From Aequorivita sp. (GTDB taxonomy: Bacteria > Bacteroidota > Bacteroidia > Flavobacteriales > Flavobacteriaceae), in NCBI GenBank assembly GCA_002715485.1, contig PAZL01000022.1, forward strand, positions 1-40,506: a stretch of 40,506 nucleotides of DNA, in the 5' to 3' direction. Numbering within the stretch: the first letter of the stretch is position 1; each line of letters starts with the position of its first letter. Shown piece by piece: positions 32,598-35,911 of the stretch. The notes under the pieces were generated by a model. The model did not search any database. It saw nothing but the letters and a program-made list of their open reading frames with translations, and was not told the origin of the DNA. Position numbers and translations under genes: made by a program.

Positions 32598-33038
32598 ATG
32601 TTATTCAGAAAAAAGAAAGATAAAAAACCTTCAACCATTGCCATGATGGATTCTAAAATCAACGAAGAATACATTGAAGATAAAGTCACTAAAATAAAAG
32701 ACGAAGATGTTGAATTAGTGATGGAAAATGAAGAAGCCATTTCCAAGAAACTGAGCAATGCCAGTCCTTTACGGAAATACGCCGAGCTCGGAAAAATTAT
32801 GTTCGCAATGCTGAAGGATGTTAAAAAGGGCAATTACCCCAACGTACCTTGGTTTACAATTGCCTCAATTGTTGTTGCCCTATTATATATCTTCAATCCC
32901 TTGGACTTAGTTCCGGATTTTATTCCGGGCGTAGGATATATTGATGATTTAGCCGTACTTTCCATTGGGATGGGATGGATAGAGACCGATCTGCATAAAT
33001 ATTTGGATTGGCGATTGGCAAATGGTGAAAACGCCTAA
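32598..33038 (+). CDS. DUF1232 (YkvA-like) membrane protein
   Basis: A 146-residue protein. The N-terminal ~85 residues are charged and helical. The C-terminal DUF1232 domain has the core YIFNPLDLVPDFIPGVGYIDDLAVL, with PLDLVPDF and DD as the family signature, between two hydrophobic segments. The function of DUF1232 is unknown. It closes the 30332-33038 operon, and its stop codon overlaps the folD stop on the other strand (CTAA, 33035-33038). Confidence 0.88.
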   Translation: MLFRKKKDKKPSTIAMMDSKINEEYIEDKVTKIKDEDVELVMENEEAISKKLSNASPLRKYAELGKIMFAMLKDVKKGNYPNVPWFTIASIVVALLYIFNPLDLVPDFIPGVGYIDDLAVLSIGMGWIETDLHKYLDWRLANGENA

Positions 33039-33913
33039 CCTCTGCGTTGTTCCCGTGCCAAAAGGGTATTTTTAAGGAGCATGGCGATGGTCATTGGCCC
33101 TACACCGCCGGGAACGGGCGTTATGAATGAAGCTTTTTTACTAACGTTTTCAAAATCAACATCGCCTGTAATTACGTAGCCTTTGGGGCTATTTGCATCT
33201 TCTACCCTTGTTATTCCCACATCTATAATTACAGCATCATCCTTTACCATTTCGGCCTTTAAAAAATTGGGAACTCCCAATGCCGAAATAATGATATCTG
33301 CCTGTGTGGTTATCTGGGCAATGTTTTTTGTATTGCTATGGGTAAGTGTAACGGTACTATTTCCCGGCCAACCTTTACGGCTCATCAAAATACTCATTGG
33401 GCGACCTACAATATGGCTTCTCCCAATAACCACAGTATGTTTTCCTTTAGTATCAACATCATAACGCTGAAGTAACTCAAGAATTCCAAAAGGAGTAGCA
33501 GGAATAAATGTACTCATATCCAAAGCCATTTTTCCGAAGTTTTCAGGGTGGAAACCATCCACATCTTTAGAAGGATCTACGGTGAGCAGTACTTTTTGGG
33601 TATCAATCTGCGGTGGTAATGGAAGTTGAACTATGAAGCCGTCAATATTATCATCTTCATTTAATTCTTTAATTTTTTTCAGCAATTCCAACTCACTGGT
33701 AGTGTGCGGCATTTTTACCAAAGTAGATTCAAAACCTACCCGCTCGCAAGCTTTCACTTTGCTGCCAACATAAGTTAGGCTTGCTCCGTCATCACCCACA
33801 ATAATTGCGGCAAGGTGTGGAACTTTTTCACCATTCGCCTTCATCTTATCAACTTCGGCAGCGATTTCGTTTTTGATATCGTTTGATACTTTTTTACCGT
33901 CTAGTATTGTCAT
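33035..33913 (-). CDS. folD: Bifunctional methylenetetrahydrofolate dehydrogenase/cyclohydrolase
   Basis: Interconverts 5,10-methylene-, methenyl- and 10-formyl-tetrahydrofolate in cytoplasmic one-carbon metabolism. The 292-residue protein has the expected motifs: YVGSKVKACERVG with the catalytic Lys, VQLPLPP, DVDGFHPENFGKM, PATPFGI, the NADP-binding GRSHIVGRPMS, and PVPGGVGPMTIAML at the C-terminus. The ATG lies only ~12 bases from a heptamer array that fills the whole gap to the upstream four-helix-bundle gene, so its leader and ribosome-binding region border repeats. Confidence 0.97.
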   Translation of the reverse strand: MTILDGKKVSNDIKNEIAAEVDKMKANGEKVPHLAAIIVGDDGASLTYVGSKVKACERVGFESTLVKMPHTTSELELLKKIKELNEDDNIDGFIVQLPLPPQIDTQKVLLTVDPSKDVDGFHPENFGKMALDMSTFIPATPFGILELLQRYDVDTKGKHTVVIGRSHIVGRPMSILMSRKGWPGNSTVTLTHSNTKNIAQITTQADIIISALGVPNFLKAEMVKDDAVIIDVGITRVEDANSPKGYVITGDVDFENVSKKASFITPVPGGVGPMTIAMLLKNTLLAREQRRG

Positions 33914-33917
33914 ATTT

Positions 33918-33931
33918 ATTAGTTTTCAGTG
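33918..33931. repeat. Left copy of a 14-bp inverted repeat bracketing the four-helix-bundle cassette
   Basis: Read on the minus strand it is CACTGAAAACTAAT. It matches the right copy at 34425-34438 (CACTGAACACTAAT) at 13 of 14 positions, in inverted orientation, so the two face outward around the 33993-34373 gene. Confidence 0.7.
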
Positions 33932-33993
33932 GTCAGTGGTCAGTGGTCAGTGGTCAGTGGTCAGTGGTCAGTGGTCAGTGGTCAGTGGTCAGT
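33926..33993 (+). repeat. Tandem heptamer array TCAGTGG, 9 full copies plus a partial
   Basis: Nine perfect TCAGTGG units run from 33926 to 33988, followed by TCAGT to 33993. The array reaches the TAA stop of the four-helix-bundle gene and ends just before the folD start. On the minus strand the unit reads as ACTGACC, sharing the ACTG core of the right-hand array. Confidence 0.97.
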
Positions 33994-34373
33994 TAAAAAA
34001 TATTATTCTTTTTGACACCAAATTTTTCTGGATGTAAAACCATATAATTTATTAGTTTTCCTATCTCTTCTGAATCTTGTATTAATTTGTTGTAAAGTTC
34101 GTCAGATAAATATTTACATCTCCACGCATATTCTAACCAAACCTGTGTTTCGGAATTTTCCGCATCGCTATCCGTCAGTTTGCTGGTATAAAGTTTCGGG
34201 TAAATTCTCTTCCTAAAAGATTCTGCAATATTTGCCGAAACACTTCGGAAAGACCTTCTGATTCGGTCGGTTAAAGAATATATTTCTTCTTTGGGAAATG
34301 CTTTTGATATTTCAAAAATGTTCATTGCAGCATCAACTGATTTTTTATATGCCAATAAATCCTGAAATTCCAT
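33993..34373 (-). CDS. Four-helix-bundle protein (23S rRNA intervening-sequence/Avd-like)
   Basis: A 126-residue all-helical protein of the S23/bvIVP family (TIGR02436). The family pattern is clear: FQDLLAYKKSVDAAMNIFEI, KAFPKEEIYSLTDRIRRSFR, SVSANIAESF, then SETQVWLEYAWRCKYLSDE. Members occur inside 23S rRNA intervening sequences, as stand-alone genes, and as the accessory protein Avd of diversity-generating retroelements; the stand-alone function is unknown. No 23S rRNA, reverse transcriptase or template/variable repeat is in this window. The gene lies between ffh and folD on the same strand, with heptamer arrays against both ends and an outer inverted repeat, so it looks like an inserted cassette. 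Confidence 0.9.
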   Translation of the reverse strand: MEFQDLLAYKKSVDAAMNIFEISKAFPKEEIYSLTDRIRRSFRSVSANIAESFRKRIYPKLYTSKLTDSDAENSETQVWLEYAWRCKYLSDELYNKLIQDSEEIGKLINYMVLHPEKFGVKKNNIF

Positions 34374-34404
34374 TATTATATTTTCTGATCATTAATGTCT
34401 AAAC

Positions 34405-34435
34405 ACTGAAAACTGAAAACTGGACACTGAACACT
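34405..34435 (+). repeat. Right degenerate heptamer array, core ACTG
   Basis: Four consecutive 7-base units, ACTGAAA, ACTGAAA, ACTGGAC, ACTGAAC, then ACT. They share the ACTG core and period of the left array, read in the opposite orientation, and stop 3 bases before the ffh stop codon. Confidence 0.85.
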
Positions 34436-34438
34436 AAT
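34425..34438. repeat. Right copy of the 14-bp inverted repeat
   Basis: CACTGAACACTAAT, 13 of 14 matched to the complement of 33918-33931. It ends directly against the ffh TAA (34439-34441 on the minus strand). Confidence 0.7.
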
Positions 34439-35767
34439 TTACCGCATCCGCCCCATTGCCTGCATCATCTTTCTTCCGCCGCCACCTTGCATCATCTTCA
34501 TCATTTTGCTCATTTGATCAAACTGTTTTAAAAGCTGATTTACTTGCTGAACGCTTGTTCCGCTTCCTTTGGCAATTCGTTTCTTTCGGCTTCCGTTTAT
34601 AATTGCTGGTTCTGTTCTTTCTTTTGGAGTCATTGAATGGATAATAGCCTCAATTCCTTTAAAAGCATCATCGTCAATATCAACATCTTTCAATGCTTTT
34701 CCAGCGCCTGGAATCATTCCTACCAAATCTTTCATACTTCCCATCTTTTTGACCTGCTGTATTTGGTTAAGGAAATCATCAAAACCGAATTGGTTTTTAG
34801 CAATTTTCTTTTGGAGTTTTCTGGCTTCCTCTTCATCAAATTGTTCCTGTGCTCTTTCCACAAGTGAAACAACGTCTCCCATCCCCAAAATACGGTCTGC
34901 CATACGGGCCGGGTGGAATACATCAATGGCGTCCATTTTTTCACCGGTACCGATGAATTTAATAGGCTTATCCACAACACTCTTAATGGAAATTGCAGCA
35001 CCCCCGCGGGTATCACCATCCAGTTTTGTAAGCACTACGCCGTCAAAATTCAATCTCTCATTAAAAGTTTTTGCAGTATTCACGGCATCCTGCCCGGTCA
35101 TAGCATCCACCACAAAAAGTGTTTCTTGCGGATTGATTGCCTTGTGCACATTTGCGATCTCCGTCATCATCGCCTCATCTATCGCAAGGCGACCAGCCGT
35201 ATCCACAATCACGACATTAAAACCATTCTGTTTGGCGTGTGCAATTGCATTTTGCGCAATCTGTACCGGATTTTTGTTTTCGGGTTCACTATAAACCTCA
35301 ACGCCTATTTGATCACCCACCACGTGCAGTTGATTAATTGCCGCAGGACGATATATATCACAGGCAACTAAAAGTGGTTTTTTTGTTTTTTTGTTTTTAA
35401 GATAATTTGCAAGTTTACCCGAAAATGTAGTTTTACCACTACCTTGCAAACCAGACATTAAAATAACAGTTGGCGCACCACTTAAATTAATACCAGCAGT
35501 TTCCCCACCCATCAATTCGGTAAGTTCGTCTTTTACTAACTTTACCATCAACTGACCCGGCTGAAGTGTAGTAAGTACGTTTTGGCCCAATGCCTTTTCT
35601 TTTACAGTGTTGGTAAACTCTTTTGCAGTTTTAAAGTTAACATCGGCATCCAAGAGCGCGCGGCGCACTTCTTTTAAAGTTTCGGCTACGTTTACTTCGG
35701 TGATGCTGCCGTGACCTTTCAGTACGTGCAGTGCTTTGTCCAGCTTATCGCTTAAATTATCGAACAT
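34439..35767 (-). CDS. ffh: Signal recognition particle protein Ffh
   Basis: The SRP54-type GTPase that binds signal sequences and 4.5S RNA and delivers ribosomes to the membrane through FtsY. The 442 residues show the N domain (1-~90), the G domain with GLQGSGKTT (106-114), DTAGR (189-193) and TKLDGD (247-252), and the Met-rich M domain (~300-442) with GSGTSVQQVNQLLKQFDQMS and KMMKMMQ, which binds RNA and signal peptides. It is the first gene of the minus-strand group leading through the four-helix-bundle cassette to folD. The SRP RNA gene is not visible in the window. Confidence 0.97.
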   Translation of the reverse strand: MFDNLSDKLDKALHVLKGHGSITEVNVAETLKEVRRALLDADVNFKTAKEFTNTVKEKALGQNVLTTLQPGQLMVKLVKDELTELMGGETAGINLSGAPTVILMSGLQGSGKTTFSGKLANYLKNKKTKKPLLVACDIYRPAAINQLHVVGDQIGVEVYSEPENKNPVQIAQNAIAHAKQNGFNVVIVDTAGRLAIDEAMMTEIANVHKAINPQETLFVVDAMTGQDAVNTAKTFNERLNFDGVVLTKLDGDTRGGAAISIKSVVDKPIKFIGTGEKMDAIDVFHPARMADRILGMGDVVSLVERAQEQFDEEEARKLQKKIAKNQFGFDDFLNQIQQVKKMGSMKDLVGMIPGAGKALKDVDIDDDAFKGIEAIIHSMTPKERTEPAIINGSRKKRIAKGSGTSVQQVNQLLKQFDQMSKMMKMMQGGGGRKMMQAMGRMR

Positions 35768-35911
35768 ATTCTTGCTTTCTTTTAAAGAGTTGCAAAGGTA
35801 AAAAAAAGTTGGCAGTATGCAGTTGCTATGGGCAGTGTTTCTTGAGATTCAAAATAGGGAAACTGTATAAAATTATTGTGAGTTTCGTATATTGCCAATT
35901 TGAAAAAGCAT

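Follow-up and report, generated by a model that had tools for sequence, protein, structure and literature searches.

The 521-bp unit lying between ffh and folD in Aequorivita sp. is probably an S23 cassette of the IVS kind, that is, an element placed at operon junctions, bounded by inverted heptamer arms that are private to it, and spreading mainly from allele to allele. The S23 family, its kinship with Avd, its rRNA insertions and the intergenic direct repeats of heptamers are all already known. A unit with lineage-specific arms joins three loose ends, namely the unexplained origin of the 23S rRNA IVS, the 'four helix bundle protein' genes that occur in multiple copies, and the intergenic heptamer arrays that have lacked an explanation.

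The ffh-folD cassette and its S23 protein

In the window (the whole 40,506-nucleotide stretch of DNA that was analysed), the S23 gene, the upstream host gene ffh (34439..35767) and the downstream host gene folD (33035..33913) all lie on the minus strand. The two host genes are ORFs that keep the names given to them in the initial annotation, and folD has one orthologue per genome in all 28 genomes of the genus. The cassette spans 33918..34438 on the minus strand. As first annotated, it adjoins the ffh stop codon (34439) at one end and leaves four bases, ATTT, before the folD start (33913) at the other, and the location of its S23 gene between inverted period-7 arrays was confirmed by TRF and by profile matches. 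The 5' arm, which precedes the S23 start codon (34405..34435, unstranded), is an ACTGAAA array on the plus strand (4.4 copies, 87%), which reads as TTCAGTG/TTTTCAG-type heptamers in gene sense. The 3' arm, which follows the S23 stop codon (33926..33993, unstranded), is a TCAGTGG array on the plus strand (9.7 copies, 100% matches), or ACTGACC × 9.7 in gene sense. Recomputation of the terminal 14-mers returned the inverted match at 13 of 14 positions reported earlier, between the outer bases of the 3' arm, ATTAGTTTTCAGTG (33918..33931, unstranded), and those of the 5' arm (34425..34438, unstranded, reverse complement ATTAGTGTTCAGTG), which adjoin the ffh stop codon. The arms form an inverted repeat (33921-33957/34385-34421) that is the longest in the list for the 40.5-kb window with a spacing of up to 700 bases. 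RNA folding of the cassette gave -115.6 kcal/mol with the arms paired (z -4.0), and 1 of 100 shuffles did as well. An Rfam scan of 33000-35900 returned no rRNA around the cassette, and no nuclease, transposase or reverse transcriptase lies within the unit.

The S23 gene (33993..34373, minus strand) encodes a four-helix-bundle, Avd-like protein of 126 residues, with matches to PF05635 (7.9e-27), TIGR02436 (7.3e-25) and bAvd (2.2e-7). Its PF05635 score of 94 bits, against a curated cut-off of 33.8, places it in the S23 family, relatives of which have solved structures (2rld, 2gsc). S23 genes have been described as lacking a known function (PMC4990558), and PADLOC returned no defence-system match for two S23 proteins. 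The family was found in all 28 genus genomes, with 5 to 21 matches each, in 235 of 296 Bacteroidota genomes and also in many other phyla; twenty viral contigs (L291-L310) encode S23 relatives as well. One genus genome, G003, matches a record of Aequorivita aurantiaca without a difference over 3318 bp, in line with a genus Aequorivita. The S23 protein is under purifying selection, with divergence at the three codon positions of 6.4, 3.1 and 24.9% over 16 intact pairs. Across seven genus genomes, stop codons nevertheless interrupt 23 of the 107 S23 domain matches.

The kinship of S23 with Avd has been noted before (PMC10053308), and the protein of the window also matches PHROG 3206, 'Avd protein of DGR' (5.8e-12), with scores under the curated cut-offs for Avd (29.4 bits vs 80) and bAvd (31.8 vs 40). 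This relationship would suit a retroelement satellite, in which S23 works with a reverse transcriptase located elsewhere in the genome. Such a satellite is nevertheless highly improbable: RVT_1 had no match in 19 of the 28 genus genomes, a few of which are incomplete, and these 19 include both the host of the window and the complete genome G007, while all 28 have S23. A reverse transcriptase was rejected as a standing partner on the strength of this count, and its partnership in maintaining the cassette is largely refuted; a transient reverse transcriptase may have moved it in the past.

Inverted arms at S23 loci and in control sequence

The host genome carries nine S23 genes. The ACTG heptamer and 14-bp ends, whose sharing among S23 genes the initial annotation proposed as a check, are absent from the other eight loci, and the heptamer is lineage-specific. 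By eye, nearly all of the host loci lie between inverted period-7 arrays of their own, with heptamers at the other loci that include TTTAGTA or TTGAGTA, GATTTTT, AAAGTTA, CGAACGA and more. The arms of the nine loci are unlike one another, except in the related pair L001/L002. One of the nine, L004, has direct repeats beside the gene and a weaker inverted partner farther out. When the flanks of the nine loci were re-paired, 0 of 100000 permutations reached the true sum, indicating that the arms are locus-specific. A single fixed heptamer or end for all cassettes was rejected, because the arms differ by lineage. A first genus-wide permutation, covering 29 loci, gave a weak result: 2815 of 100000 shuffles attained the true sum, since orthologues lying in opposite orientations score high against each other.

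Control sequence was scored in the same terms, with flanks of 150, 160 or 200 bases depending on the analysis, so that arm scores are comparable only within one analysis. Over 2155 positions with S23-like spacing in the window and in the fetched stretches of its own genome, the top score of 35 fell on the ffh-folD cassette; the next places scored at most 30 (99th percentile 25, 99.9th 30), in a control that still contained other S23 loci. In G007, a complete relative, all 16 S23 loci score 24-46, one of them split over two matches, and the best lag is 7 or 8 in 15 of the 16. Evenly spaced S23-free stretches of the same genome (400 kb) held 318 of 9640 positions at 24 or above, 17 at 30 or above and none at 35 or above. 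With about 3% of S23-free positions at 24 or above, the faintest arms cannot be told individually from background; 21 of 129 genus loci fall short of 24, and 20 of 78 named loci fall short of 25. Exact 9-base seeds in the same 400 kb gave 37 inverted pairs scoring at least 30 at spacings of up to 800, only one of which has a best lag of 7 with at least half of its bases matching. This lone S23-less pair (L185:16327-16372) is a mini-hairpin with GACGTAGGAC-type arms 45 bases apart, and its arms resemble those of some S23 cassettes.

At the gene level, 108 of 129 S23 loci of the genus reach 24 and 77 of 129 reach 30; the corresponding counts for 310 ordinary G007 genes are 23 and 2. The 129 unique loci, merged from 146 genus records, cover some of the S23 genes in the 28 genomes, for the most part those with the better scores, and include lineage-mates that are not independent; G007 alone gives 10 of 15 vs 2 of 310 at 30 or above. 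A best lag of 7 was obtained for 80 of the 108 arm-bearing S23 loci vs 2 of 20 ordinary genes that score at least 24 and have arms long enough to judge. Of small ordinary genes (≤220 aa, n = 121), three score at least 24 and none at least 30. The link between heptamers and S23 genes drawn at the outset was upheld for the arms, which are strongly tied to S23 genes, but not for the ACTG motif as such, arrays of which also occur on S23-less contigs of the host.

CAGT-type arrays on these S23-less contigs lie at G000:C57:14116-14224, C57:8783-8836, C47:8875-8906 and C56:4323-4340, with one mini inverted pair among them. Scars of lost cassettes are a possible source of such arrays.

Arms were also found across phyla. 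Of 80 named loci, 78 were used (L223 and L288 were dropped, their flank being too short), and 58 of the 78 score at least 25, divided between 21 of 27 in Bacteroidota and 37 of 51 in other phyla. A planctomycete locus is among the clearest, with GACGGTG/GACAGTG heptamers over about 160 bases on both sides; other clear arms are found in Clostridia (AGTGGTT), Poribacteria, Acidobacteria, Omnitrophica and Campylobacteraceae. Over 104 arm-bearing loci, the gene-ward strand of both arms is poor in C (10%) and not poor in G (29%). Telomere-like arm heptamers were seen in L233 (TTAGGGA) and L152 (TTAGGGG).

The likeness of arms was also set against that of the proteins within the genus, for the 62 of 78 genus loci with arms of at least 24. 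Pairs at different sites with 60-80% amino-acid identity had a mean arm score of 33.7 (49 pairs, which come from few lineages), as against about 14-16 below 60% identity. Pairs sharing flanks but less than 60% identical scored about 15, with unrelated arms; the flank-sharing groups are chained and may include neighbouring junctions. Arm likeness therefore goes with protein identity and not with shared flanks: it is the S23 protein that the arms follow, not the junction.

Both arms change together, staying complementary as S23 diverges. In related pairs from different genomes with 60-70% amino-acid identity, the complementarity of own arms was about 33 and that of cross-paired arms 23.5, and own arms paired better in 100 of 119 pairs and worse in 14. 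With disjoint related pairs (n = 48), own pairing exceeded cross pairing in 31 and fell below it in 15 (p = 1.3e-4). For close relatives the cross pairing was as good or better, own exceeding cross in 27 pairs and falling below it in 45 at 80-90% identity, and in 13 vs 27 at over 90%. The joint change of arms is directly visible at one junction, upstream of a gene starting MKTAYIV (putative thiolase-like). The S23 genes at this site are related, but the species differ in their arms, which are TTGAGTA or of the TAGATTTTAGAC type, alike on both sides of each cassette. A discrete cassette, composed of the S23 gene and both arms, is supported.

Occupancy and orientation at operon junctions

Empty sites in relatives, on which the initial idea of a mobile unit turned, were observed: hisA-hisF lacks the insert in sister genomes, and ffh-folD shows presence and absence. 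HisF was identified at 1e-60 in 17 of 28 genomes, of which G003 was not resolved and 16 were used. The hisA-hisF site is empty in 7 of the 16, the two genes overlapping by 8-11 bases, and in the remaining 9 the cassette lies exactly there. The sisters G023 (empty) and G026 (occupied) agree in all of the final 47 hisA bases leading up to the junction, and their hisF identity, taken in 60-base steps, is 85-98%. Four of the first eight hisF bases differ in this pair, as they do in G020 (empty)/G001 (occupied) and in G018 (empty)/G021 (occupied). In G014, the site holds a different S23 gene with other arms. A target-site duplication, also raised at the outset, was not evident in the comparison of the nine hisA-hisF carriers with the seven empty sites, where the ends are hard to place within the arrays.

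In most carriers (L311-L326), the last residues of HisA and its stop codon are read from the array (...YILNDD, ...YILSDERRTMNDE), and at empty sites HisA ends like ...YILNAL, inside hisF. Annotators should be cautious at such junctions, since arrays can encode gene tails, as they do for HisA.

At ffh-folD, an S23 gene is present in 15 of the 28 genomes, broken in some. The other 13 comprise three remnants (read by eye, with no tblastn match), three GTTAAT mini-hairpins, two solo arrays and five with neither. The S23 genes at this junction are of three types that are mutually nearest among 108 loci (62-64% amino-acid identity; next best ≤46%), and array copy numbers vary among genomes. The states are scattered over the ffh/folD tree, requiring eight presence/absence changes by parsimony with remnants counted as present, on a tree with many weak branches. 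G018 (empty) and G021 (occupied) are sisters there at 100/100, and G023 and G026, which have different S23 types at ffh-folD, at 99/98. Whole-allele exchange by recombination would equally give scattered occupancy at this junction.

The S23-less ffh-folD junctions of G011, G020, G001, G018 and G017 (L090, L093, L095, L102 and L103) contain a short palindrome of the CCTCGAGCGCAGTCGAGAGG type, perhaps another repeat family of the genus. That of G006 (L104), a junction that is occupied by S23 cassettes in relatives, has a long TTATCAG-type direct-repeat array alone.

The fetched loci include no near-identical copies at different sites. The best within-genome pair has 75% amino-acid identity, which gives no sign of recent copying to new sites in this set. 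A conventional small non-autonomous transposon, whose arms would be terminal repeats of one family served by a transposase in trans, could explain the inverted ends, the presence and absence at hisA-hisF and ffh-folD, the mini-hairpin and solo arrays without S23, and the related S23 genes that occupy two sites with similar arms (e.g. L001/L002, 71% amino-acid identity). We consider this origin quite unlikely, given ends that are wholly different between lineages within one genome, no clear target-site duplication at hisA-hisF and within-genome paralogues of 75% identity at best. Y1 transposase (PF01797), the one family searched, also had no match in the own genome, where it was accordingly rejected as a standing partner of the REP/RAYT type. 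Private heptamers, no evident duplication and no near-identical copies together argue against a unit cut via one fixed end. Of the mobile-cassette idea, the discrete unit and its presence and absence hold, but the single enzyme with one fixed end is not supported. The cassette looks like an IVS-type element with ends that co-diverge with its own protein.

Orientation was classified for 167 of 188 S23 loci, the 21 unclassified loci being left out. In 152 of the 167, the S23 gene lies in sense between two same-strand genes, compared with 131 of 269 ordinary genes, a placement in operons that fits an element relying on, and not disturbing, the host transcript. Five S23 genes lie at junctions of a paa (phenylacetate) operon in L383:829-10500 (G008:C14), in the order paaA-S23-paaB-S23-paaC-S23-paaD ... 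paaH-S23-paaI ... S23-pcaF; the paa names are those of the best NCBIfam match, with paaG, paaH and paaI below their own cut-offs. Six S23 genes occur in L382 (G006:C20), in a run similar to this operon.

The cassette might instead be a control module useful to the host, in which S23 would bind its own stem and tune the processing or stability of the operon message, and only ordinary recombination would be at work. The sense orientation in operons, the purifying selection on S23 and the several cassettes along one paa operon are in keeping with such a role, as is the translational regulation that MacGregor proposed for TAACTGA repeats (PMC4679880). We regard it as unlikely, however, for an element that is missing in sister species and scattered in its occupancy, that has internal stop codons in 23 of the 107 domain matches from seven genomes of the genus, and that sits at junctions with unrelated host functions (ffh-folD, hisA-hisF, paa).

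Possible mechanism and comparison with known systems

For an IVS-kind cassette, which is the reading we favour, the operon transcript would carry the S23 message, and the arms would pair into a long stem around it. RNase III would cut this stem, as in IVS, and the cut would free the S23 message from the host messages, leaving the insertion harmless. An S23 oligomer may act on its own arms, either as an RNA stem or as DNA, which would explain the co-divergence of arms and protein. Spread would occur chiefly between alleles of one site, through homologous exchange via the flanking genes or through homing, and jumps to new gene boundaries would be rare.

RNA-level tests were carried out on 153 non-redundant loci out of 185, and the 104 of these scoring at least 24 were used for a wobble test. 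Mismatches of the G-U type were not enriched (79 vs 101 of the A-C type, p = 0.12, an opposite lean). Sense and antisense duplexes did not differ significantly over the 153 loci (-72.3 vs -70.0 kcal/mol, p = 0.10), nor in clear-arm loci only (p = 0.23 or more). Neither test thus supported selection on pairing of the sense RNA. Own arms nonetheless paired far better, at -72 kcal/mol vs -54 kcal/mol for mismatched arms. With no G-U excess and no sense advantage, arm complementarity may be held at the DNA level, and its upkeep there may be due to template switching or to a protein acting on both ends.

This lack of wobble asymmetry is also what DNA-level copying would produce if the arms were mere by-products, with slippage growing the heptamers, hairpin template switching copying one arm to the other and S23 a bystander; the variation in copy number at one site would likewise be expected. 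An origin of this sort is very unlikely in view of arms that are nearly confined to S23 genes in many phyla, with a single clear pair in the 400 kb that lack S23 and, among 121 ordinary genes of ≤220 aa, three at 24 or above and none at 30, and that track the S23 protein and not the site. Template switching may nonetheless be how the arms of a cassette stay alike.

A wider proposal is that of a minimal, bacteria-wide class of mobile element, in which an S23 protein of about 120 residues would recognise its private arms, help to maintain them and drive a homing-like spread into operon junctions. We put this forward tentatively, as a conceivable but doubtful extension. If it were true, the 23S rRNA IVS and part of the intergenic heptamer arrays would be special cases or scars. 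IVS have long been suspected of mobility (Ralph and McClelland 1993, as cited in PMC4990558), and operon cassettes would allow the old idea that the IVS ORF serves it to be tested in harmless bacteria. The co-diverging protein and repeat pairs form a natural set suited to finding the binding target of S23.

In rRNA IVS, the S23 ORF lies in sense orientation. The S23 gene of the cassette is likewise in host-transcript sense, on the same strand as ffh and folD, and further likenesses to IVS are an S23 ORF within the element and complementary ends able to form a stem. The IVS of Coxiella 23S rRNA has an S23 ORF and a 28-bp stem formed by its inverted ends in 428 bp, and two or three tandem GACAGAT heptamers precede the ORF, at the first of which RNase III cuts (PMC4990558). 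As this plan, in 428 bp there and 521 bp here, is that of the cassette, operon cassettes are taken as the same kind of element outside rRNA; the tandem heptamers beside the ORF are a feature reported for Coxiella and not known to define the IVS family. Unlike IVS, the cassette lies between protein genes (ffh, folD) and not in a helix of an rRNA gene. Unlike the Coxiella IVS, it has arrays on both sides of the gene that differ between lineages and an S23 gene under purifying selection, whereas the Coxiella ORF is reported to be decaying (PMC4990558). Excision by RNase III is published for the Coxiella IVS, and by analogy may apply to operon cassettes. S23 has also been reported in 16S and 23S rRNA gene insertions of CPR bacteria (PMC11270868). 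No rRNA was found near S23 in the 40 of 80 named loci that were scanned (27 of the remaining 40 being Bacteroidota by title), and in the scanned loci Rfam returned nothing over the gathering score except one FMN riboswitch; the link to IVS is therefore drawn from the family of the protein, the shared architecture and a single published case.

Direct repeats of TAACTGA between genes, often near start codons, were described by MacGregor in 2015, with arrays also in Aequorivita sublithincola and Gramella forsetii and some relatives without them (PMC4679880). The arrays of the cassette are similarly period-7 and intergenic. Unlike the TAACTGA repeats, which consist of one heptamer in direct orientation, they are paired, inverted and tied to S23, and neither 'S23' nor 'helix bundle' occurs in the main text of PMC4679880. 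A table for Flavobacterium columnare places a 'four helix bundle protein' gene between guanylate kinase and mononucleotide adenylyltransferase genes (PMC5524665). Literature on S23, heptamers and inverted repeats, in a search covering few subscription journals and no preprints, yielded no S23 cassettes with lineage-specific inverted arms at operon junctions.

The cassette shares with the DGR system a four-helix-bundle protein related to Avd, and differs from it in an S23 protein that falls below the Avd and bAvd cut-offs and in belonging to one of the 19 of 28 genus genomes without an RVT_1 match. It is unlike a MITE or insertion sequence in that terminal repeats are not common to the nine S23 loci of its own genome, bar L001/L002, and unlike REP/RAYT in that this genome has no match to Y1 transposase (PF01797). 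Homing introns and inteins stay at one site across species, are scattered in their presence and rarely reach new sites. S23 cassettes differ from them in that no endonuclease gene is seen in the unit, but resemble them in persisting at their sites, in being scattered among genomes and in the rarity of new sites.
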